From NCBI GenBank assembly GCA_963920765.1, contig OY987251.1:4652501-4716500 (forward strand): a DNA stretch of 64,000 bases, given 5' to 3'. This stretch comes from Ulota crispa. Lineage: Eukaryota > Streptophyta > Bryopsida > Orthotrichales > Orthotrichaceae. The position numbers were made by a program, and so were the translations under genes. Below, one piece after another: positions 2,493-33,729 of this stretch; within the stretch, counting starts at the first letter, position 1, and each line of letters begins with the position of its first letter. Below the pieces are notes generated by a model, which did no database searches, was not told where the DNA came from, and worked only from the letters and a program-made list of their open reading frames with translations.

Positions 2493-5400
2493 ATGGCAGA
2501 CGTGGAGGATGATGAAGTGGACCGAGAGGATCCGTTGCTGATCGCCACTGTGAAGGCGAGGCTGAATCGTGAGGAGAAGGTTAAGAAAGTGGGGCGTAAG
2601 ACGGTGAAGCGATTGGTGAGCATCAAAGGTGACGATGAGGAGAAAACAACCACTGAAGAGCCTTCCAGTATATTGAATCCTCGGAGGTAATCTCATCACC
2701 ATCTCTCTCTCTCTCTGCTGCCTTTTTTGCCCTTTGGACTATCTCAAAACTCTCTGTTTTGCAAAAGAAAAAAAGGAGCAATTGAGAGGAGTGTTTGATT
2801 GCACCATCTCTTCTCTCTCTCCTCTCTGCTGCTTTTTTTTGCCCTTTTTTACCATCGCAAAATCTCTGTTTTGCAAAAGAAAACAGAGCAACTGAGATGA
2901 GTGTTTGATCTCACCATCTCTCTCTCTCTCTCTCTCTCTCTCCTCTCTGCTGCTTTTTTTGCCCTTTTGACCATCTCAAAACTCTGTTTTGCAAAAGAAA
3001 TAAGGAGCAATTGAGTCCTCGGAGGTGATCTCACCCTCTCTCTCTCTACTCTGCTGCTTTTTTGCCCTTTTGAGCATCTCAACTCTGTTTTGCAAAAGAA
3101 AAAGGAGCAATTGAGTCCTTGGAGGTGATGTCACCAGCTCTCTCTCTCTCTCTCTCTCTCTCTGCTCTCTGCTGCCTCTTTGCCTTTTGACTATCTCAAA
3201 ACTCTCTGGTTTGCAAAAGAAAATGGAGCAATTTTAGTCCTCGGAGGTAATCTCACCATCTCTCTCTCTCTCTCCTCTCTGCTGGTTTTTTGCCATCTCA
3301 ATTCTCTTTTTGCAAAAGAACGGAGCAATTGAGATGAGTATTGTGTGTGTGTGTTTTTGTGTGTGCAGATATCAGCAAGAAGCTTTCAAAGCAGCGTTGA
3401 GTAGAAACATTATTCTCTACTTGGAGACCGGAGGTGGAAAGACACTGGTTGCGGTGCTGTTGATGAAAGCCCTGGCGAAGTGCACGAGGTTGAAGGATGG
3501 CAACAAGCGCTTGATTGTATTCCTTGCACCCACCGTGCTCCTTGTCCAACAAGTAACGTCCCCTAAACCCAACCTTTTTCTCTACTTCAGATTCTTGCCA
3601 AACCGTGTTTATTGTATGTCGGTAGGTTTTGCATTTCTGATGCAATTTTCGGATTAGGGTTTAGTGCCACGAAGGATCAATATTGGTGTTGCAAAATCGT
3701 ACAAGTTACTGTTTTCAAGAGTGTGGTAGTTGTATTGATGATTTTTGGGAAAATTTCATGGATACCTCTGAAGTTTGCAATATTTACACAGATACCCTTG
3801 CTTTTTCAGAAATTACACAAATACCCTGGCGTTTGTTTTGTTGTGCTTGTAATTCCTACATGACCAATGATGAAAAAGGGAATGTAATGAAACAAAAAAG
3901 AAGCAACGTGCGCACAAAGGAAGAAGAGAAGTGGCATGCACAACAAAACAAACGCATGAAATTTTTGGTCTAGGGGTATTTGTGTAATTTATAAAAAAGC
4001 AAGGGTATGTATGTAAATATTGCAAAATTCAGGGGTATCCATGAAATTTTCCCATGATTTTATAAGGTTTGTTGAGTAAGAGCAAAGTTTGTGGTTTTTG
4101 GTTTTTGTAAAGCTTGGATGTTGAGTGTTTCTAAACTTTGTGAGGGTGTTTGATTGAGCCAGCAATCACGAGTGGTGAAGATTCACACCGACTTGAAAGT
4201 TGGTGAGTATTACGGCGCTAGGAATGTGGATAACTGGAGCAGCGCTGAGTGGGAAACGCAAGTCTCTCAAGTCGAGGTTCGCACTTTTCTACAACAATTC
4301 CTTTTTTTCCAAAGCTATGTTTCTTTTGTTGCAACGTGGTTTGGGATTTTCATATGTTGTTCAAGGTTGCGGAAAGATCATTCAGTCCAACAGGGTTGGA
4401 CACATGAGGATTCTGAGTACAAAAATACGCCTGAAATCTTTCAATATGCCTGAATATCTGAGAATCTTTGAGAATTTACTCAAAAACACTAGTAAATAAT
4501 TTTGTCATTGGACAGGCGAGAGGTCAACTCAATACTGTCCAATATGATAACCATGAATGGTCAAAAACCTGATATTTTAAAGTGCTTTTTGGCAGGTCAT
4601 GGTAATGACACCACAGATCCTGCTCAACAACTTGCAGCATGGATTCATGAAGATGGACGTCATTGAGCTCCTCATCTTTGACGAGTGCCATCATGCTTAT
4701 AAGAATCATGCCTATGCTCAAATCATGAAGGTAAAAGAGACTTGCTATCTTTTCCTTTTTGTGTTTCTTTTTGTTTTTTTGTGAGTTTGACCATAGTAAA
4801 AAGCTCTCAAGTTTAGTGTATGGAGTAGAGACTTAGGAGGCATGAGATTTCTTTGAGAAACGTAATCTTTGCCTTGGGTGGAACAGGGGTTCTATCACAT
4901 TAATGTAGATAATGGAAGGTTGCCAAAGATCTTTGGTATGACTGCGTCTCCTGTGACAAAGAAAGGTGATTTACGATACCGACATAACACAATGGTTAAG
5001 AATTTTGCGATTATTATCTTTGTCTTTAGTACGTGTCCTGCAGGTGTTTAAACTTGTGGTTTTTGTTTGTGAAGGGGTGAAAACATTTAGTGAAGCTGCT
5101 GGACAACTCTCTGGTTTAGAGGATATGCTTAGATCTGAGGTAACTCTTCTGCATCTTTACACCTTTTTCCTTACGTCTTGATTGATATTCTCTTGTATGC
5201 TTGTAAACAGGCTAGCAAAGCGAGAGTTTTTATTAACTTATGCTTGACAATGCTAGTTTTTAAATTGTTGCTGTAAAACAAAACAGGTGTTTACATTGAA
5301 AGATAGAGAGGAGGTTGAGTTTGTAGCACCTACAGCAAGCACTATTGAGGAGCACTACGATGCCCCAAATCTCAAAGTTATTGCACCGTTCAAGGAAAGG

Positions 5401-8400
5401 ATAGAAGCTCTTTTGAACAAGGTACGTCTCTCTTTCCTTTCGTTCAACGTGTCTAATGGGGTTAGTCAAAATTAGGGTTTTGAGTACAAAAAATACGCCT
5501 AGAATCTGCCTGAATTTTTTGAGAGTTCACTCTAATATTTTTTAAGTATTTGACATTGGCTGGGCGATGTGGTGTCCAATATAACTACCATGCTTGTAAT
5601 GTCTGTTGCACTTGACAGAGTTTTTACTGCTGTTTTGTACTAAATCCTTTGCTTTAAAATCATTATCTCGGAATATTTTCTCATGTATTACATATCTCAC
5701 TTAAACTTGACTGCTTCTTCTAGTATGAGAAAGCCAACAACGATGCTCTCACCAACTTGAAAGTTGGGTTCAAAGACCAAGCCGAGTTGATTGAGAGGCT
5801 GAAGGACAAGATCAGCAAGTTTCATCGGGACCTTCAATTCTGCTTGGAAGAGCTTGGTTTGTGGTGTGCATACAAGGTCGGTGATGATCTGACCCCCCTT
5901 CTCTTTCTCAATTGTCTTTGTATACTAGCTAGTTTACAAACTATCGTTATCAAAAATTTCAAAACATCCTTTGTAAGTAAATAAATCATCAAGTCTTTAA
6001 TAACTGTACAGAAGATGGTTTTCTTATTCCTGCAGGCTGCTGAACACTCGTTCAAAGTTGACAGTGGAATCAATGATTTTGAGGGGTTTGGAGATGCTAC
6101 TCAAGTCTTCAAACGCAACAAGGATCTGTTTCTGAAAGAATCTTTGCAATTGCTTCAATCAGCTGTTCCTGAAGGTTTTTGTTAACAACATACTCCCTCT
6201 GTCCCTCTAAGAAGCTCCAAATCAGACACATTTCTTGTACCTCTAAACAAACTCCCTTTTGCTGATTTCATACACTGGGAACGCGTTCATGTTCAATGAT
6301 CTCATGGGGGCAAGTGAAGTGATTAGAGAGCATTCCTCTCCTAACAAGCTTGGCCTTGCCCATGTGAGGTTTCATTGTTGCTACTAATCTTTAAATCATC
6401 AATAATGAGGAGCTAGCAACATGCACAAATATGGTACTTTTTGCATGGAATTTGGGTGCCCAAACGGTGACATAAAAACTGGAGATTTTGCATACATTTG
6501 GTAGATGGTATATTGAATCTAGAATGCATGTGTCACTAGCACAAAGACAAAAACACAGTTAATCCTTTGCAAGGAAGCTTTTTGGAGGTTTTTAGGGAGA
6601 CAAAGGGAGTAATTCCCAATCTCTTGATTTGTTTGATAGCCGGTTTTTTCGCTAGTTGTGATTTTTCTCTTTGTTAAGACTTACAAGACAAAGTTGCATG
6701 ATTTTTTCAGGCTGGGCTACGGTTCGCAAGGCGCAAGAGTTACAGGACGCTGTAAGCAAAGGCTACTTGACCCCAAAGCTCTATCAGTTAATAGCATTAC
6801 TTTTTCAGAAAAGGTAAGAAATGAGTTCTAAATGTGGTAAAAATTTGGATGCATTGAGTTGCATGATTTCCTGGCCCTTAATGCTGCTGCTTGAATTTTC
6901 TCTGATCCTCTTGCAATGAAAGCGTTTGAATCTGAATTCTTTTCTTTTTCTAGCTAAATGTGGTCGTCATGCTCGTTTTGCATCTGTTGAGTTGAGCAAA
7001 CACAGGAATTTTTGTACATTTCGGCTGATGATCTGGAAACATGGTCTGTTTGTCAGATTGACGACAAAGGATGCAAAATGTATAATATTTGTGGAGAGGC
7101 GCATGGCTGCTGTGGTGATTGCAAGTTTAGTAAACCAAGTGCAGTGCCTCTCCGAGTTCCTCCTTGCAAAGTCAATTTGTGGAGCCAATGCTGGTGTCGA
7201 TACTACTCGAGGCCAACAACAAAGCACCGTGGCTGCATTCAATCAAGGAGAGGTTGGAAATTTTTTGCTTTAACTCTTGCAAATTTTGTGAGGAATTCAA
7301 CCAAGTCTAAGTCCAAGTCTTTGCCTTCCTTGCACAAAGTCTGCTCACATTCCTATATTGGGCTCCTACTTCTTTTGAGCAGTTTTTACTGAGACTTTCT
7401 TGAGTTTTTTATATATTTTCAATGACAAACACTTGCATTTTTCTTCACTGCTTTTGGTGTTATGGAATCTTGCCCCGTTTCGGTTATGTCGTCTCTTTTT
7501 ATTCTTTGTCAAATTGGCCATTTTTTAATCCCACAAATCTTTGTATGAGCTTTTTATTTTGGACTTGCTCAGGTCAACTTGTTGGTCGCCACGGACATCG
7601 CAGAAGAAGGCATTGACGTTCAAACTTGCAGTGAAGTGATACGCTTTAGCCTTCCCAAAACTCTTCGTAGCAACATACAGTCTCGTGGACGAGCTCGTCA
7701 GCAAGGATCTACTTACATTGTGTTCTTAGAAAGGTGAGTTCAGAAAATCTGATAACAAAACACCTCCTTTTGTTTTATTTTTGCATTAAACACCATTTTA
7801 GGTAAATTGGAAAAAACAGTACATTTTGGGACTTTCACTATTTTTTAATATTATGTACAATTTAGCATATTACAAAAAAACAAGCGTGCTTTTTCTTGAA
7901 CAATAGTGAAGTCTCAACGATTGTCACCAAGAATTTCAAATAAAATGCAACTTTGAGCTATAGCTATGCCTACATTTACTGTATGTAAGATTAAGGTGGA
8001 GTACAAAATGGTCCCTCCGTTTTTCCCAATTTACCTAGCATGGTGTTATTTGCAATATGTCCTTGGAGCTTTGAATTTGTGCAGCTTTTGTATGATGGTT
8101 TGTTTTGGTTTTGGTTTTGATTTTGATTTTGGATTTCTTTTCTGTAGGGGTAATGTAGCACAAAAGGAGCAATTTTCCAAAATATTACGGAGTGAACCGG
8201 TGATGAGAGAGGAAGTTATTTCAAGAGAGCATATGCCTCTTAACAGCAGCTTGATTCTGAGTGCACCTCCTGCGGCGTTTCGTGTTGCTTCCACTGGCGC
8301 CTCTGTGACTCCTGAGTCAAGTGTTAACCTCATTCTTCGATTCTGTGGAAAGTTGCCTTCTGACAAGTAAGTTTCTGACTCTTCTTTTCTAACAAAACCT

Positions 8401-11400
8401 ACCATTTTTCATTTGTTCATTGCTGTTGTCTTCTTTTGGTCTATTTGCTTTATTTAGTAAAGTAGACGATACTACTTTCATCACTTTTATGCTTTTTGCT
8501 TATACAGCCAACTTTACGAGTGAGATTTAGACACATGAGCTCTTCTTCTGATTTTTGCACATTTGCTAAGCATTCATGTGGTTCGGGATTTTACCAGATT
8601 TTACATGCCAAAGCCGGAGTATATACTTCAAGAGGTAGGACTAAAACACAGGTGCAATCTCAAGCTACCACCTGCGTCTCCAATACACGAAATAAGAGGA
8701 GAGCCACAAAGCACCCCTCTCCTGGCAAAGCAACTAACTGCACTTGAAGCTTGCAAACAGTTGCATCAAATAGGAGCACTGAATGAAAATCTGGTACCTT
8801 CATTAGACTTTGAATTGGGAGAGGAGGAGGAAAAGTTTACACAGACGAAGAGCACATCCGGTGTCGGTAAGGACCTTATTATACATAAAAGCAGAGTTTC
8901 ACTTCTTTGTAATATTATGCTTGTCAGATAGACTCTTTTTTGCCTTTTCTTTTCATTTTGATTTTTGATTTTTGTTGTATTGGGATTTGTTTTTGTGAAG
9001 GTACTACTATGCAAAAGGAACTATATCCCTCTGAAGAAGCGGAAGTTTTTACTGGAAATTGGCACATTAGCAGAAGTGGTGCAATTTTGTACGCGTATTA
9101 CATGTCATTTGATATCCAACCTGCGGAAGACGTGGCGTACACAAATTTCGTATTGCTGGTTGGAAGTGCTCTTGAAGACGACGTGGCAAAGTTAGAGACT
9201 GAGTTATTCTTAACTCGGGGAAGAAAAGTCTCAGTCAGGCTTTCTCCGTGTGGAACTACTACTCTCTCAGCTGATCAGGTACTTATCTCTGGTCACACTC
9301 CGTATTTCCTTTTTTTCAATTTGTTTTTTACCCTTTTTCTACCAACGCATGCCATAACTTCCATTGATTCTATTGAGAATGTAATCATCAATATAAATAT
9401 GCAGCTGTGTGTCCTGCACCCGTTGAGCTACATTATAAACTGTTTAAATAAGGAAGTGATATATGCACACCCAGGGTTTGATATATGCACACTGGGGTGG
9501 GGGGGTGTAAATTTTAGATATTTACCATTAACAAGCTGAATTTGGAAAGTTTGAATTCAGGTTTGGATTTAGAGACCTTGATTTAGTGTAGAACCACAAA
9601 GAAGGATACAATTGAACAACGCCCTTAGCTAGGGAGCAAATTATTTACCCTTACCCTTGTTTGTAATAAAAGTTAAGCTTTTCCACCGGGCGTTTTTCAA
9701 TTGTAACCTCCTTTGTGGTTCTTGATTAAATCAAAGTCTCTAAATTCAAGCTACCAATTCTCCATGGTACTTTAGCTACATAGAAGTAAAATTACCACAG
9801 AGTAATTTTAACAATTCTAACGTGGTGCTTTTACTATTTTGTTCAGTTGGACGATGCAAAGATATTTCAAACGGTGTTGTTCAACGGGATGTTTAGCAAG
9901 ATGGTGAGATCCACCCAAGGTTGCCAAAAACGCAAGAGAGGGATGGACGTGTCCTCTTTGTTTATAGAAAAGTCGGATTTGTGGAAACATGATAATGTTT
10001 ACCTGATCTTACCAGCAATAACCAACACCTTCGGCGCTGGAATTCCAGTAGATTGGAAAAGCATCCAAACCACATCTTCTGCAATGAAAAACTCATCTCA
10101 CCAGGAAGACTTGGATGTAGAGAATATCCCTCCAAAAAAAAAATCTTCTCTTTTCAAGGCCTTTTTTCAACGTTTCACTCACCGACAAGAGCCACAACAA
10201 CCTCAAGGGAGTTCCTTGACTTTGGCAGGAGGCTGCCGAGCCTCCAGTTCACAGCTTGCTGACGTGGCAGTGCTGACTCTTCACACTATGATGATTTACC
10301 CTGTTGTGTCTTTACTCCACGACACCACCGCTCAAAGTCCCTTTCCGTTTTCTGGTGAAGGAAATCCAACGACTTACACCGAGTTTTTTAAGACAAAGTA
10401 GGCAACACCACATTGTTTCATAAATTAGTTTATTTTTTATTTTTTAGGCTACATGCATCTTTTATATTCAGTGTTAAGCTCAATTGTCTTACTTTGCTTT
10501 TTTTTGTGCAGATATGGGCTTACATTGCAGTATCCAAGTCAGCCTCTTCTTCAACTTAAGCAAAACCACCGTGCCCACAACTTGCTTCCCGGTGGTACTG
10601 GAAAAAGTGACAAAGGTATTATTATCCTCCACATTGCTTTTGGTAATTGATGTTGTAAACATAAGTAAATACAGTAAATAGTAGAAGGAGAAAAGGGAAT
10701 TGGATCTCGTGGGGGGAGTAATAATGCTCGGAAGGGTAAATTGTGGGCAGATCTCAAAAGGGCACTTATCAAGCTTTTCATGGTGAAATTTTTCTTGTGG
10801 TGGCAGGTGCGGTAATGAAAAGGAAAGCTGTGAAGAAGGAAGTGACTGTGGGGCAAGAAAATGGTGCTGGAAAGGTTCTCAAAGTTGTGAAGAATGCTGA
10901 TAAAAACGGTGCAGTAGAAGTGGAGGTTCCAAAGGAGCCAGGAACTCGATGTGCATCAGTGGAAATGCCACCTGAGTTATGCTTGGTTTTGGGATTCTCC
11001 GCAGCTGTAATACGCTCTGCTTATTGGTTACCATCTGTGATGAACCGCATCAAAGCAGCCGCCCTTGCTTCCCAACTACGACGGTGCATCCAAGCTCCTA
11101 AAATACCAGTCATGGAGGTAATGCTTCTCTTGATTTTCTATTGAAAAGTGTCGTGAGTTTCCATTGAAAAGTGTCTGGATTTTGCATCGATAGGTGTCTT
11201 GCTTTTCCATTGAAAAGAGTCTTAACTTTTCATTGAAAAGTTGTCTTGATTTTCCATTGAAAAAAAGTGTGTACCAGCCCCTGTCAGGATCTTGCCTTTT
11301 TCTCATCTCCTTGCAAGGGTGAAGTCTTCGGTTTTTCAGTCTGTCCTTTTACATGGAACTCCAGAAGAATAGCTGCTAGAATTTTGAGTGCTGCAGGTTT

Positions 11401-14400
11401 TAAAAGCCCTGACAACAACACGTTGCAACGAAAACTTCAACATGGAAGCCCTTGAGTTGTTCGGAGATTCTTTTTTGAAGTACGCTGTGAGCCGAAAACT
11501 CTTTCTGGAACTGAAAATAGCCAACGAAGGGATTCTCTCCACAAAGCGTATGCACAGAATTTGCAACCGAGCCTTGCATCAGTTGGCTGTCAAGCGAGAA
11601 TTATCTGTACAATCTCAAACCCCCTTTTTTCAATTGTGCTTCTTTCAACTTGCTTTCAGCCTGGTTTATATTATTATTTAGGTAAATTTTGATGGATACC
11701 TCTGAAATTTGCAATATTTATATCAATGCCCCTAATTTTTCAGAAATTACACAAATACCCTCAGACCATATATTTCAGGGGTTTGTTTTGTTGTCCACGT
11801 CACTTTCTTCTCCCTTTGCTGCTTCTTTCCCATTCTGTTGCACTCCCTGCTTCAACATTCGTCATGAAGGAAGTAGCGTGCACAACAAAACAAAGGCCTG
11901 GAAATCATGATCCGAGGATATTTGTGCAGTTTCTGAAAAACCGAAGGCATCTACACAAATATTGCAAACTTCGGGGTTATCCATCAAATTTTCCCTATTA
12001 TTTAAAGTTTCCATCTTATAGTACCAGCTATAATTCCTACAACATCTGTGGATTCAATTTTCTCAAAAGTGGTCTCTACACTTGGCGCATATTTAGAGTG
12101 TTGGAATTATGCTATGTTTACATAATGTAAGCCGCTAACGTGTTATTCCAATGTATTTTAATTAGCAAGAGCAGTATGGTATTAAGGGAGGGCTAAACTG
12201 AATTACAAAACAAGCTTAAATAGCCCTTACATGGTACGCAGAAAGGCACGAAGGTCGTAGATTTGTATCCAAATGGGTGAAGGAAACAAACTTGTGCCCG
12301 AGGATGTGTCTGTATTTTAGTAGTAGTAGAAGTATTTGTATAAGTATTAACATATTTAAGTTATTATAAAATCCTATTTATTTAAAAACATATCATTATT
12401 ATCTTCTCTTTACAAAAAAAAAGGTAAATTTTCAGTTTTTTCAGTTAGAGCAAAAGTTTTTAAACTTGAATCAAATTGAGGTTCTTCTATGGTAGAGTAG
12501 CGAGTTTCTCTCTCGATTCTTTTAAGCTTTTTGATTGTGGAATTTTGCAGTTTTGTGAATGGTTTTTAAATGAGTGTTTGTATTGTTGTGTTGTAGGGCT
12601 ACATAAGAGACTGTCCATTTGATCCGAGTCGTTGGGCAGCACCAGGTATGTTGGTTGCCAGAGAGGTTGTTTGTCGGTGTAAAGAGAAGCAGATGTTCAA
12701 AGCCTTTAAATCCACGACTTCCAAAGTAATTGGTGTGTTTGGAAGCGAGACTCTAAAAGAGCAAACCAGGAGAGACACAATCAAGCCAAGGATTGGCTTG
12801 ACTTGTGACAAAGGCCACCGTTATCTCTGCTCCAAAACTTTAGCAGACGTGATGGAGGCTTTGATTGGCGCTTACCTGGAGTTTGGACAAAACTGCAACG
12901 CTGCATTGAAGTTTATGATTTGGGCAGGCATTGACGTGGACTTTAATGATTCTCTCATGAAAGCTGCCAGTGAAGACTCTCCTGTGGATTTGCATTGTGA
13001 CTATGGCGTGGATGTGGAAGCCCTGGAGAAGAAGATTGGGTACAGCTTTAAAAACAAGTATTTGCCTTTAGAAGCCATGACTCATCCTTCGAACATGGGC
13101 GGAGACCGCGTTCATTGCTACCAGGTATCATACACCCTTACCCTTTTTATTCTATTTTAGTCTCATTAGCACTCACTTCATGCTTTTTCCTCGTAAATGG
13201 TGTGGTTTGGTGCAACCTTGGGATCATCGTAAAGAAGAAGCTTTTGAGTTTTGCATAGTGAGTCACTCAACAAGTGGCTTGAAAGCTTGACTGTTAATTT
13301 TTTGCTTGTTTCTTTGATAAATGATGTTCCAGGGATACTCTAATACATGGTGTCTGAAAATAGCATGAACTTACTACATGGTTTATCTTACACTATAGAG
13401 AAAAAACAGAGTAGCATTTATTACATGAGAGAACAGGGAGGTCTACTAAAAACACCATTTTCTGCTCATCTATAATGAGAAACCAATATGCAAGCATAGT
13501 CACAAACATGGGTGTACACTCCTCGCTTGATGCAAAAGCTATTATCAAACATACAAAGTGGTCGCCGACTGCATACCCCCTTTTTGCAAGGTTTTAAGAA
13601 AACCTACATGGGGGTTGGCCGGCGGTTGTAAATTTTTTCATAGTCCAACTTTGAAAATGGAATGATCTATAGTTTTCATCAGTAATGAATTCTAGCTCTA
13701 GAACTTGATGATTTTGTTGACATGAGATTGTTCTTTATTCAAAGTCTGTTCGTTTGTAAGCAACGCCGCAAATATTTTACAAGTGTGTTGGCAATTGTTA
13801 ATCCGTTTATGAAATAGGAGGGTGCAAAAATGTGCAGAATGCTATGAAAGAGTTGGTCGTGGTGGTGGTGATAGCCAAGCCCCTCTTTGCAGAGGATTTT
13901 TTGCACCACGAACAACACTTAATTTAGAAACATCATGAGCTACTACTTTGTTTTAAAGTTGTTTATTTTTCTTTTGTTGATTTTAGGGAGCTGTGAATTG
14001 TGGAATGTTTGTTGCAGAGACTGGAGTTCCTGGGAGATGCAGTGCTGGACTTTCTGCTGACACGTCACCTGTTCACCTCGCATCCCACATCCACCCCGGG
14101 GCTCTTGACAAGCTTGCGATCAGCATCTGTCAACAACGAGCGCTTTGCAAGGGTGGCTGTGAAGCACAAGTTCCACTGCTACTTGCGACATGGCTCTGGT
14201 TTGCTTCTGCACCAAATTGAGGAATTCGCCAAGTCTATTGAAGCAGCTGGTGATGATCAGACACACAGTTCCTTTGGCATGCACGGAATCGAAGCTCCCA
14301 AGGTAAACTAACTAACTAACTAACTACTCCCTCTGTCCCTCTAAAAAGCTCCTAATCAGACACATTTCTTGTACCACTAAAAATAGCTCCCTTTTGCTGA

Positions 14401-27541: not shown

Positions 27542-30038
27542 TCATGCCAGCGTGGCACCAGCAGCGACGACGTCTTGGCAAACGCGGAACTTGGCAAAAA
27601 CGTACGGGTACTGGCGCTGGTAGAAATTCCGAAAGGTATCCCGCCACATACACGGATGCGTCACGGGCGACGCGCCTTTCAAGACGTAATGAGCGCCGTC
27701 AAAGAAATCAGAGGAATACTCAGGATACTCCGACATGCGAACAAATCCTGGAAACGGTTCAAACGGCGTCGATGTCCACTCCCATCCACCAGATCGCATC
27801 TTCTCCACGTCGGAATCAGCACGGGTCAGAACCATGTGGTACTCGGGTTCCGTCATGACGCGTCCGCGTGACCACGTGCAATACGCTTCCGCCTCGGACA
27901 AGCTCGCGTACACGGGCTCGTCCGCGACGCGACGCCAGTGACTCGTGGTGGACGCGCTGTGGATCCAGTAGTCGCCGTTGATCTCGCTCCACGTGGCAGG
28001 CGTTGTGAGATTCTCCCGCTGGAAGAATTCGAAGTCGAGTGGCTTCCAGTACTCGGGTTTCTTGTATCCTCCGGATTTGATAAAAGTTCGGTATTGCGAG
28101 ATTGTCACTGGGTTAAGGGATACCTTGAAAGGGTCTGGGATCGCGGTTGTGAGTTGTGGGTACTCGTTGTCCCACATGTATGTGCCGTCCTTGGGGTCTC
28201 CGCCAAGTGTCACCTCCCCCGGCGCAATCTCCACCATCGCTGGGGTGTTCTCCTCCTCATGGCCACCGGCTGAATCCTCATCGGTGATGCCATTATTGTG
28301 CACGTTGATCCCGTTGCTCTTGTGCACGCCATTGGAACTCTGATGGGCGCCATTAGAGCTCTGGTGATGGACGCCATTGGTGACACCGTTGGAGATGCCA
28401 TTGGAGCTCTGGTGATGGGCGCCATTGGAGCTCACGTGATGGGCGCCATTTGCAGTGCCGTTTGCGTGATGTGGTGAGACACTTTTGCGCATCTTCTTTT
28501 CGAAGGTGGTCTTGCGATCTTGAGCACGCATGTACGCAAGCGTTTCCAAGTGCATATACTCGTGCTCAAGAGCGAGGATGATGAGTCTCGAAGAGATTTC
28601 GTTGTTCGCCAAGGCGGTAAGAATCTGCGCTCTGGTTCTGTCCACGTAAGCTTCGATCTCGTCACGAGTTGGCCACTCAGGTGGGACTTCGGGATGCGAG
28701 TGGCACTTCGACGGATCAACAACATTAGGATCAATACCACGCGAGAACATGATATCCATCGAAGACGACACCTGCTCCGGACGCAACTTGAGCTTCGCAA
28801 AAGCTTGGATATGGCCGTAGTAGAATTTGAACGGGTGACGCACATCGATAGGCTTCTCATCCCACTCAGGAACCGACTGGAAGAACGCATCGGTTTGAGA
28901 CCAGCATCGCTCCAACGCTTCCCGGAACGGAATGAGCATCTGCATGCCCCACATGGTGTCTCGCCATGCGACGTCGATGTGGAACCCCGCGTCGTTCGCT
29001 AACCGATTGAAGTCGCCAACTGTAAACTTTCGGGAGATTTCCACCAACACTCGCTCGCCACGTTGGATGCGAATGTCGTGCTCGGGAAGCGAGAGCTCCT
29101 CGGAAAAGGTGACGTACATCTCCACTTGTCGTAGGGTTTCGTTCACCACCACTTCGTAGATCCATGTCGCCTCTTCCGCGTCGGTCGTGACGTGGTTTAG
29201 CAACGCGAGTGCGTATCGCATTCCGTTCTTGATGAAGAGCTCGGATAAGCCGAGTCGGTCGTGGTACGCGGCGTAGATCATGCTCGTGTCTTTCCACGTG
29301 TCTGGCACAAAATGCATGCACACAAAATCAGTGTTTCCGGTGAAGCGCATGCATGTGTTCGAGCTAGGGTTTCGGTGCGTACCAGCGCAAAGAAAAATCT
29401 GGCAACGAGTGCCGACGGCGGCGGAGATCTCCCGGAAGAATTGAATGGCGCCGGATTCGTTAAAATTCCCCACGGAGCTCCCGAGCCACATTATGCACAT
29501 GTTGGCAGTTGGGTACATCGCTCGCACTTCTTTTAACCCTTGCATGTACTCGCCTTCGACCATGTCAATGCACTCGGGTGCAATCCCCTTCTCAATCAAA
29601 TTAGCCCGCGCTTCCGCGAGGAACGACGCCGATACGTCAATGCCTACGAATTTGCACCTGAAGAAGAATCACTCCACATTAATTGCAACCTAATTTGCAA
29701 GCACAATCGACAAAATCGTGATGGCGATGGTGGTGGTGAGAGTCGAATTACCTTCCGCGGAGCTTTTGCACGGCGGTTAAGATGATGCTCGATTTACGAG
29801 CAGTGCCGCAACCGAGCTCCACGATCACGCTCTCATCGGGGACGGCCGCCGCGATTTCGTCCGCGCAATCGTGAAGCCGACGCTCTTCCACACGAAACGG
29901 GTAATACTCCTCCACCTCGGTGATCTTCTCGTAAATCTCCGACCCGCGTTCATCGTACAAAAGACTGCACGGGATCTTCTTCTGCTCTGATGACGATCTC
30001 CGCAGTCCCGCCAGGACTTGCGCCTGCGGCGATCCCAT
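27542..30038 (-). CDS. EGT1: Ergothioneine synthase, EgtD-EgtB fusion (Egt1-like)
   Basis: Predicted to trimethylate histidine to hercynine (N-terminal half) and then, with an iron centre, oxygen and cysteine, to make the C-S bond of the thiol antioxidant ergothioneine (C-terminal half). Coding exons, minus strand: 30038-29752 and 29657-27542, joined in phase 2 across a 94-bp intron; 2403 nt, about 800 residues. Order: EgtD-type SAM methyltransferase (LLYDERGS, VELGCGT, GIDVSASFL, WLGSSVGNF); DinB-like domain with a helix His (YYGHIQAF) and the iron-site motif EHEYMHLETL; a low-complexity Ser-Asn-Gly-His linker of about 70 residues; FGE-sulfatase domain (WEWTSTPFEP, LKGASPVTHP, WRDTFRNFYQ). 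Methyltransferase-first order fits fungal Egt1 and differs from OvoA, where it is last. The start is the first ATG after an upstream stop. GC-rich codons contrast with neighbours, which could reflect transfer or just local composition. The last step, a C-S lyase, is not seen nearby. Confidence 0.92.
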
Positions 30039-30340: not shown

Positions 30341-30476
30341 CCGCAACCTGTGCACCATCACCACAAAACACACCACAAAACCTTACCACTCCAAGAAACC
30401 GAGATCTTCCCACATTTTCAAAGCGCAATTGTTGCGACTGGCAACTCCAACCAACAAAATTTGGCGAGGCACAAAC

Positions 30477-30572
30477 ACCGAGTCCCACACACACATCGAG
30501 TCCCACACGTACATCGAGTCCCACACACACATCGAGTGCAACACGCAATTCGAGTGCTACACACACATCGAG
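30477..30572. repeat. 18-bp minisatellite upstream of the ergothioneine gene
   Basis: Five to six units of CACACATCGAGTCCCACA with variants (GTACATCGAG, GCAATTCGAG). Because 18 is a multiple of three, every frame across it stays open, giving spurious repeated peptides on both strands. Confidence 0.88.
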
Positions 30573-30875: not shown

Positions 30876-30952
30876 TACTGTAGACTGTAGGGGGACTGTA
30901 GAGGATTTGGGGGACTGTAGAGGATATGGGGCACTGTAGAGGATTTGCGGGA
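30876..30952. repeat. 19-20-bp tandem repeat
   Basis: Three to four units of GGGGACTGTAGAGGATTTG with substitutions. Unrelated to the 18-bp repeat 300 bp to its left. Confidence 0.8.
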
Positions 30953-31196
30953 CCATGCAGGTGCTGAATTGCTGATGCGTCGCTCGTCGTCGTCATCGGG
31001 AGTGGGGTAACTTGATCGTCGAGTACAGTAAAACTACGACTGTGCAGTGTGGATTTCGAGCGTCGCATGCCACGCAGATTTGGGCGCGCCCACGCGGCGG
31101 ACTGACGTTGAGCCACATGATGTGCCCGGGCGGCGACGGGCACTAGCCGACGCGCTTATCGTAAGCAAAGTGGTAACTTACTGTAATTTAGTGGTA
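30953..31196. other. GC-rich spacer
   Basis: About 240 bp of fairly GC-rich DNA with no supported gene. The CT/GA-rich and GC-rich sequence between 30600 and 31150 may include the promoter of the ergothioneine gene. Confidence 0.35.
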
Positions 31197-31538: not shown

Positions 31539-33405
31539 TAAGAACGATTGGTGTGGCAGGCAGTAAATGAATGATTCCGGAGAGTGGTAGTCGAGTTCAG
31601 TGAACTCGTGGCAAGTCGGATATTTCCATCCTGGCATGTCCTTGGCACAATGAATGCAAGTCTAGGTGGCACGCTCTCATGCACTCATGCATTCACCACA
31701 GCAAGTACAGTTCTACACCCTCGTCTCCCATTCGTCGGCTCCCGTACTGTAGCGGTCAATGAACTGGATTGAAACCAGCGAGCGAGCCAATGCTACAGGA
31801 ACAGAGCCTCTTGTTGAAAGCGCGACAACGTAGAAGCCGTGCCGCACTTTTTTCCAACCGAACCCACAAATTGACAAAATACCACACGGAATAGTTATCA
31901 TATGCCTTCGCATTGAATAAAACAAGAGAGACGACGGACACAAGAAAGGTTTCTACACCGGGCCAGGGTTCTTTTTTGGCAAATTTTTGCCTAAATCTTA
32001 CCTCATATTGTCTTTGGCGACCAATACACTACGAAATTTGTGTGAAAAAATGAATGAAATTGCTACACTCTTCCTTACTTGAACATCATGTTTGTCAAAT
32101 TTTGGATGAAAGTAGCTTATACTAGTAAACTTATTGGGTGAACATGTGCAAATCGTCCATTCATTCTAGTTTAGCCAAATTTTCCAAAATAGTTGGTCTT
32201 CCCTAGAATAGAAAAGAAAAGAAAAAAAAAGAAAAAAAAAAAATTGTGGGCCGGGCCACACTGATAGGGGTAGTCACGGCTTCTTAGGGAATGAAAAGAG
32301 AATGGAGATTGAGAAGTTGTGGAGACAGAAAAGAGGAGCCAATAGGAGCTCATTCTTTGTGAAGATGGTGTGACACCCCGTTTGTTTGTTTTGGAGAATG
32401 GAGAATAGAAACTGGTTTACATAAAGAAAGGCAACATGGCCAGCGATTGGAGGAGCTCACGCGCTAACTCATTCTCCACTTCATTCTTCACCTCCGGAGG
32501 AAAAGAATGGGGATGTGAGAAGTTTCACACGAGCCGAAAAACGCAAACTTTGATGGCCACAAGCAGAATGACATGTTTGCATTCTCATTCTTCACGGCCA
32601 GCCAAGCTTTGACTACCCATAATATAAGCAGGGGTTTCAAAATAACGTTTTCTGAAAAACAGGTGGCAGTGTTCTCACTTTGCATAAAAATTCAAGAGTC
32701 CACAAACTGGCATCTCAAACCTCTTGCCCTATAATGGTGGAGAGATCATCTTCAGATGAACAGCAGATGAAAATATGAAAAAGTTATTACCTCCCAAATT
32801 CCGTTTCAAACTGCCGGTTTTGGCTAGTGTGGCCCCGGCATCAATTCCTTATGTTCCGGGGAGGACTGGAGCCGGTTTTGAGAAGAAGCGACTCCAGATT
32901 GGTGTGGCGAGGACGCAGTCGTCGTAGTCGTCGTGGTGAACTGGTGATCGTTTTTGTCACGCATTGCATGCAATTACCTGGGGTGTGTCGTGCGAACTGC
33001 GGAGGTAAGCTCCGGGGCGAGGGTCCTGTTCATGGGAGCAGAGAAGCAGGAAAAAGTGCGATAGGGTGTCGAGTTTCGACCCAGCAGCGTCGCAGCGGAG
33101 AAAGTGGACGCGTCATGGGGCCGCTCACGAGTCACGTACCGTCATCGATCGGCGTGCGCTTCAGGGTTGGTTGCTCGTTGTCGCTGCGACTGCCGAGGAT
33201 CGATGTGCACGTTGAAATCGCCAGGTGCGGAGCTCTCAGTTGCTCTCAGCGGCTGCTTCAGAATCAGGAGGAGCTGCTGCGGCTTCGACACACCCGGCGC
33301 CCCGGCCTGTGCCGTGCCGCCGCCTGCGAAGCCCCGCCGGAAGCAGGGTGGGCCGACGCTGACATGCAGTTCGCGTTGAGCTGCACCGGCCAATCCAAGC
33401 GAATA
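31539..33405. other. Repeat-derived spacer, no supported gene
   Basis: Contains a short relative of the GGTAGTCAC family near 32265-32375 (AGGGGTAGTCACGG to GGTGTGACACCCC), an A-rich run near 32210, and a segment at 32630-32850 (AATGGTGGAGAG, CCGTTTCAAACTG, CCCGGCATCA) repeated near 51780-52080. From 32820 to 33420 the DNA turns GC-rich and holds a 229-codon open frame (32827-33516) with no domain, overlapped by frames on both strands. I treat it as non-coding. Confidence 0.45.
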
Positions 33406-33406
33406 A

Positions 33407-33729
33407 GGGCATCTCCACCGGTCCACCGGTGCAGACTCGCTCAAAGTTTTCCATCTGGTGTGGCAAGGCTTGAAGGCTCTCAATCTCCACCCATGCTCTT
33501 TGACAAGGTGGCCTAACACTCCAAGACACCTCATAAATAAGCAGTTGACCACTTATCTAGGGAAGTAGAGGACAAAAACCACTAAAGTTAGGATGAATAG
33601 TGCATGAATAGTGGCTTGGAGAGTGGCTTGCTAGACTCGCCAGATAAGAGAGTTTGAGAGGGTCTTGAGAGGGGCTTGGCTACTTTTCATTCACTTTGAG
33701 CGTGCCCGAGCCACCGGTGGAGATGCCCT
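33407..33729. mobile_element. GCATCTCCACC-family MITE, copy 1
   Basis: Ends GGGCATCTCCACCGGT and ACCGGTGGAGATGCCC are near-perfect inverted repeats. The interior (CATAAATAAGCAGTTGACC, TCTAGGGAAGTAGAGGA, GTGGCTTGGAGAGTGGC) recurs in the next copy 180 bp away, in the same orientation. Confidence 0.87.

Follow-up and report, generated by a model that had tools for sequence, protein, structure and literature searches.

Does a moss carry its own gene for making ergothioneine and, if so, is that gene an old possession or one acquired recently from another organism? The question is raised by a stretch of 64,000 nucleotides of the Ulota crispa genome (the window), in which an EgtD-like and an EgtB-like part are joined in one gene on the minus strand. 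A sequence-only reading of the window had pointed out this fusion and proposed horizontal transfer followed by intron gain. Our analysis indicates, with high confidence, that the gene is the moss orthologue of EGT1, that it would feed an ergothioneine pathway and that it has long belonged to the green lineage instead of having been acquired recently.

Moss EGT1 and moss ergothioneine are already known. According to Kock et al. 2026 (PMC13358676; cited throughout from extracts, as are the other papers), EGT1 is present in every bryophyte, lycophyte, fern and gymnosperm species examined, as well as in Klebsormidium and in every ZCC-grade streptophyte alga analysed, and is absent from angiosperms, where a loss is inferred. 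In the same extracts, sterile Physcomitrium cultures contain ergothioneine, heat and high light raise it in both P. patens and Klebsormidium, and Thuja callus has none. A 2015 paper (PMC4659905) lists an Egt1-like protein of P. patens with the same domain order; as extracted, PMC10295655 still has plants taking ergothioneine from soil, and PMC11313143 deals with tardigrades. The newness implied by the sequence-only reading is therefore lost to earlier publication (PMC13358676, PMC4659905), and its statement that seed plants do not synthesize ergothioneine agrees with that paper for angiosperms but is overtaken at the gene level for gymnosperms, which carry EGT1 (PMC13358676). The present locus extends the published view of ergothioneine synthesis as a green-lineage trait lost in angiosperms by a further moss, together with a corrected gene model.

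Structure and surroundings of the locus

The gene lies 4.68 Mb inside a 15.8-Mb contig (C10) of a 274.8-Mb genome in 157 contigs. It is open from the start codon at 30038 to the stop codon ending at 27542, and removal of two introns keeps the frame and yields a protein of 773 aa (Table 1). The plant-like intron described earlier is present as intron 1, but the gene does not have the single coding intron claimed for it: intron 2, which is in frame, had been read as coding. If translated, intron 2 would add 27 residues to the methyltransferase between LCA and DTWKD. None of the six bacterial EgtD rows aligned to the 773-aa protein has an insertion at this site, nor do the EgtD rows from the PDB; the algal EGT1 row described below lends no independent support, because it was spliced by eye exactly there. 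We thus correct the gene model to include a second coding intron, predicted from this alignment. Within it, CTGAT resembles what we take to be the plant branch point consensus. It seems improbable, though worth stating, that retention of intron 2 acts as a splice switch; if it did, a full-length protein with 27 added residues within the methyltransferase core would result, which could stop hercynine synthesis and leave the sulfoxide synthase intact.

Table 1. Features of the window in and around the predicted EGT1 gene (window positions).
Feature	Position	Strand	Description
Dicer-like exons	3238-14311	+	DEAD/ResIII helicase, two RNase III domains; 13 kb or more from EGT1
EGT1 exon 3	27542..29301	-	Methyltransferase end, DinB with HX3HXE, repeat-rich linker, FGE-sulfatase, stop
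Tandem repeat, 24/48-nt units	28326..28450	-	TRF; encodes His/Ser/Asn/Gly-rich linker between DinB and FGE domains
Intron 2 (predicted)	29302..29382	-	81 nt, GT-AG, phase 1, in frame, no stops
EGT1 exon 2	29383..29657	-	Methyltransferase continues, contains LGSSVGN
Intron 1	29658..29751	-	94 nt, GT-AG, phase 2
EGT1 exon 1	29752..30038	-	EgtD-like histidine N-methyltransferase domain begins; spliced reading, PF10017 87.2 bits

A Pfam scan of 10 frames of the window matched three, all of them Dicer-like and located at 3.2-14.3 kb; neither of the two frames closest to the supposed ALF4 gene had a match. Separately, a 245-codon open frame on the (+) strand (window 32779-33516) is part of a GC-rich region (0.554 at 33-34 kb) and has no Pfam match at E 0.01. 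Short tandem repeats of 18 nt (window 30470-30572) and 19 nt (30877-30953) are found on the upstream side of EGT1.

Domains, conserved residues and the proposed pathway

The predicted protein combines Methyltransf_33 (PF10017, 87.2 bits), DinB and FGE-sulfatase (PF03781, 86 bits), in this order. The first and the last score above their Pfam cut-offs; DinB_2 reaches 22.0 bits, 2.8 under its cut-off of 24.8, with the HX3HXE motif present. This architecture bears out the intact EgtD-EgtB fusion described earlier and, judged from the protein sequence, places the gene in EGT1, the fused ergothioneine synthase family. At E 1e-5, all six PDB matches of the N-terminal half are EgtD structures, and the top matches of the C-terminal half are EgtB-IV and SenA. 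In the EgtD half, Y28, Y45, N160, Y200, E275 and S277 are identical in all eight aligned rows; we take these to be substrate and SAM-site residues with the roles they have in Mycobacterium EgtD. Likewise, H434, H438 and E440 (HX3HXE), the upstream H351 and five more positions are identical in 10 of 10 rows, with HX3HXE and H351 presumably forming the iron motif and upstream His of the EgtB-type half. Residues 300-773 were modelled together with eight bacterial relatives, which gave a structure of moderate confidence (mean pLDDT 63.8, pTM 0.68) in which the linker repeat region is unstructured and of low confidence. In a fold search, the top matches of this model were EgtB types II and IV (E values from 4.1e-16).

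The protein reaches none of the curated NCBIfam cut-offs (EgtD, TIGR03438, 184 of 291 bits; EgtB, TIGR03440, 139 of 360; SenA, 181 of 420; OvoA, TIGR04344, 141 of 400). The ranking of the C-terminal half, with SenA above OvoA and EgtB, which are about equal, would suit a sulfoxide synthase with another substrate, i.e., a SenA-like selenium donor or OvoA-like histidine, and hence a different product. We consider this reading very unlikely, as all three scores are far under their cut-offs and hercynine is the likely substrate of an enzyme fused to an EgtD half. Moreover, the domain order is opposite to that of OvoA, whose methyltransferase lies at the other end (judged from the name and matched region of 8khq and from the brown-algal order extracted from PMC4659905), and P. 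patens is reported to produce ergothioneine (PMC13358676).

The reactions, product and role that we assign to EGT1 are drawn from family knowledge and from the published work on Physcomitrium. The N-terminal methyltransferase would trimethylate histidine to hercynine, and the DinB-FGE half would act as a non-haem iron sulfoxide synthase that joins hercynine, cysteine and oxygen into hercynylcysteine sulfoxide. Cleavage of this intermediate would then fall to a PLP lyase of the EGT2 type, with its gene on another contig, and would yield ergothioneine, which may serve as a stress antioxidant. Through a TIGR04343 search, we reached a candidate EGT2 exon (C6:9615616-9615882) whose top PDB match is Egt2 / hercynylcysteine sulfoxide lyase (75.5 bits, E 4.6e-20), a structure that we take to be from Neurospora; its score with NCBIfam EgtE is just 38.4 of 400 bits. 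The presence of EGT2 is weakly diagnostic, since EGT2 homologues occur in every plant surveyed (PMC13358676). The 12 matches of a PF00266 search were not taken as EGT2: they belong to Nfs1-like, PSAT-like and MOCOS-like genes (names from our reading of the translations), to a further gene with several exons on C10 and to three weak fragments. With EGT1 intact and ergothioneine published for a moss (PMC13358676), the earlier proposal that this lineage can make ergothioneine is very probably right.

Several known systems resemble the Ulota gene. By description, Physcomitrium patens EGT1 is a moss protein with the same methyltransferase-DinB-FGE fusion (Pp3c20_13320 and Pp1s94_113V6, which we assume to be one gene; PMC13358676, PMC4659905), and fungal Egt1 (Neurospora NcEgt1; S. 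pombe SPBC1604.01 / MUG158) shares the domain order and the inferred reactions (PMC4659905, PMC13358676). The closest likeness that we could align is an algal EGT1, a candidate for the trebouxiophyte type, found on a second contig of the same assembly (C74); genes of this type are published for Apatococcus and Auxenochlorella, as extracted. Specifically, moss and alga share 45% identity across the fused protein (the algal protein spliced and trimmed by us), but the algal gene has about eleven introns, compared with two in the moss, and a shorter linker.

Origin of the gene

Bacterial relatives were found with the second of two scans. A scan of genome_contigs with a two-row alignment (A1) gave no confirmed relative, and a scan with a 79-column C-terminal alignment gave 111 pattern matches, which led to eight bacterial loci (L030-L037; Acidobacteria, Myxococcota and others). 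Both halves align with the moss protein, but six of the eight loci have them as two separate frames, egtB first; L031 and L036 have the EgtB half alone within the DNA examined. The moss EgtD half shares 39.5% identity with the alga and 24.8-29.0% with the bacteria (six rows), and the EgtB half shares 42.4% and 25.9-37.9% (eight rows), respectively, the latter being a small margin. In trees of both halves, which were built from moss, algal and bacterial rows and drawn with a midpoint root, moss and alga form a pair that is separate from the bacterial rows (support 100/100 and 100/99). In the EgtB-half tree, this pair falls in one unresolved group with rows from Acidobacteria, Myxococcota and Eremiobacterota. 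The moss branch is long in the EgtD tree, the moss row is of unusual composition in the EgtB tree, and the inner branches are mostly unsupported (one of five and two of seven starred).

We examined base composition at third codon positions (GC3) in exon 3 of EGT1 and in nine other exons or genes of the genome, a set that excludes one row, an EGT2 stretch in the wrong frame with seven stops. GC3 of EGT1 was 0.684, and the others ranged from 0.455 to 0.719; eight were below EGT1, including four neighbouring exons in the window (0.455-0.581), and the MOCOS-like gene was above it (0.719). The GC-rich coding noted earlier is therefore real relative to the neighbours but lies within the range of the genome. 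Two genes elsewhere in the genome are also long single frames.

These data bear on a recent acquisition of a fungal or bacterial gene by the moss followed by intron gain, which we regard as having only a few chances in a hundred of being right. Fungi are known to have EGT1, the Ulota gene is GC-richer than its surroundings, with a GC3 above that of most measured exons and genes, and its introns are fewer than those of the algal gene. The compositional and intron arguments, on which the earlier proposal of transfer was founded, lose their force when one other gene exceeds EGT1 in GC3 and two others are long single frames. The tree check suggested earlier, run here with algal and bacterial rows, groups the moss with algal EGT1 and does not support recent transfer, and the bacterial halves are separate frames in all six loci that have both. 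The EasF model (TIGR03439), presumably a fungal-type methyltransferase, gives 158 bits, under its cut-off of 205.55 and under the 184 of the bacterial EgtD model, a comparison that comes with no fungal Egt1 control score. In addition, as extracted, EGT1 occurs in all examined bryophytes and other non-flowering land plants (PMC13358676).

A second EGT1 in the assembly and the question of contamination

The algal EGT1 lies on a contig of 28.7 kb with a GC content of 0.529 and is intron-rich. Its introns, about eleven in number, come from a hand-made splice model, in which several introns within and downstream of the linker are uncertain and the third intron was read by eye. One phase-2 intron lies 3 to 4 residues from the phase-2 intron 1 of the moss gene, in the same variable loop; this nearness is suggestive of an old shared intron but is not proof of one. 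When 5,000 bases of the contig were searched against the genome, a repeat had 10 other matches, all on C21, C48, C49, C50, C80, C85, C86, C114, C126 and C149, and none on C1-C10. The contig probably stems from a co-sequenced green alga that contaminates the assembly, and the trebouxiophyte Apatococcus is reported to have EGT1 (Kock et al. 2026, PMC13358676). A probable algal EGT1 contig of this kind could mislead pathway surveys of the assembly.

That the moss locus, too, is contamination from an associated organism has next to no chance of being true: one EGT1 of the assembly looks foreign and algal, but the gene studied here lies deep within C10, with Dicer-like exons 13 kb or more away, and no similar DNA was found elsewhere in the genome. 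Both matches of an FGE-sulfatase search of the genome belong to this EGT1 gene, a search that is not exhaustive, as the split algal copy was missed.

We also looked at photosystem genes in the assembly. PsaA of contig C157 has 8htu_A as its best PDB match (1733 bits), followed by the sequence of 6l35/7ksq/7kux/7xqp (1713 bits over 742 residues), 9lut_A (1698 bits) and others at 1651 bits and less; we take 8htu_A and the 6l35/7ksq/7kux/7xqp sequence to be Physcomitrium photosystem I, which lends fair support to a moss as the source of the assembly. Matches to PsaA or PsaB fall on C1-C10 in 46 of 48 cases, 23 of which contain stops. These pieces are probably plastid DNA inserted in chromosomes, and C1-C10 themselves are probably nuclear.
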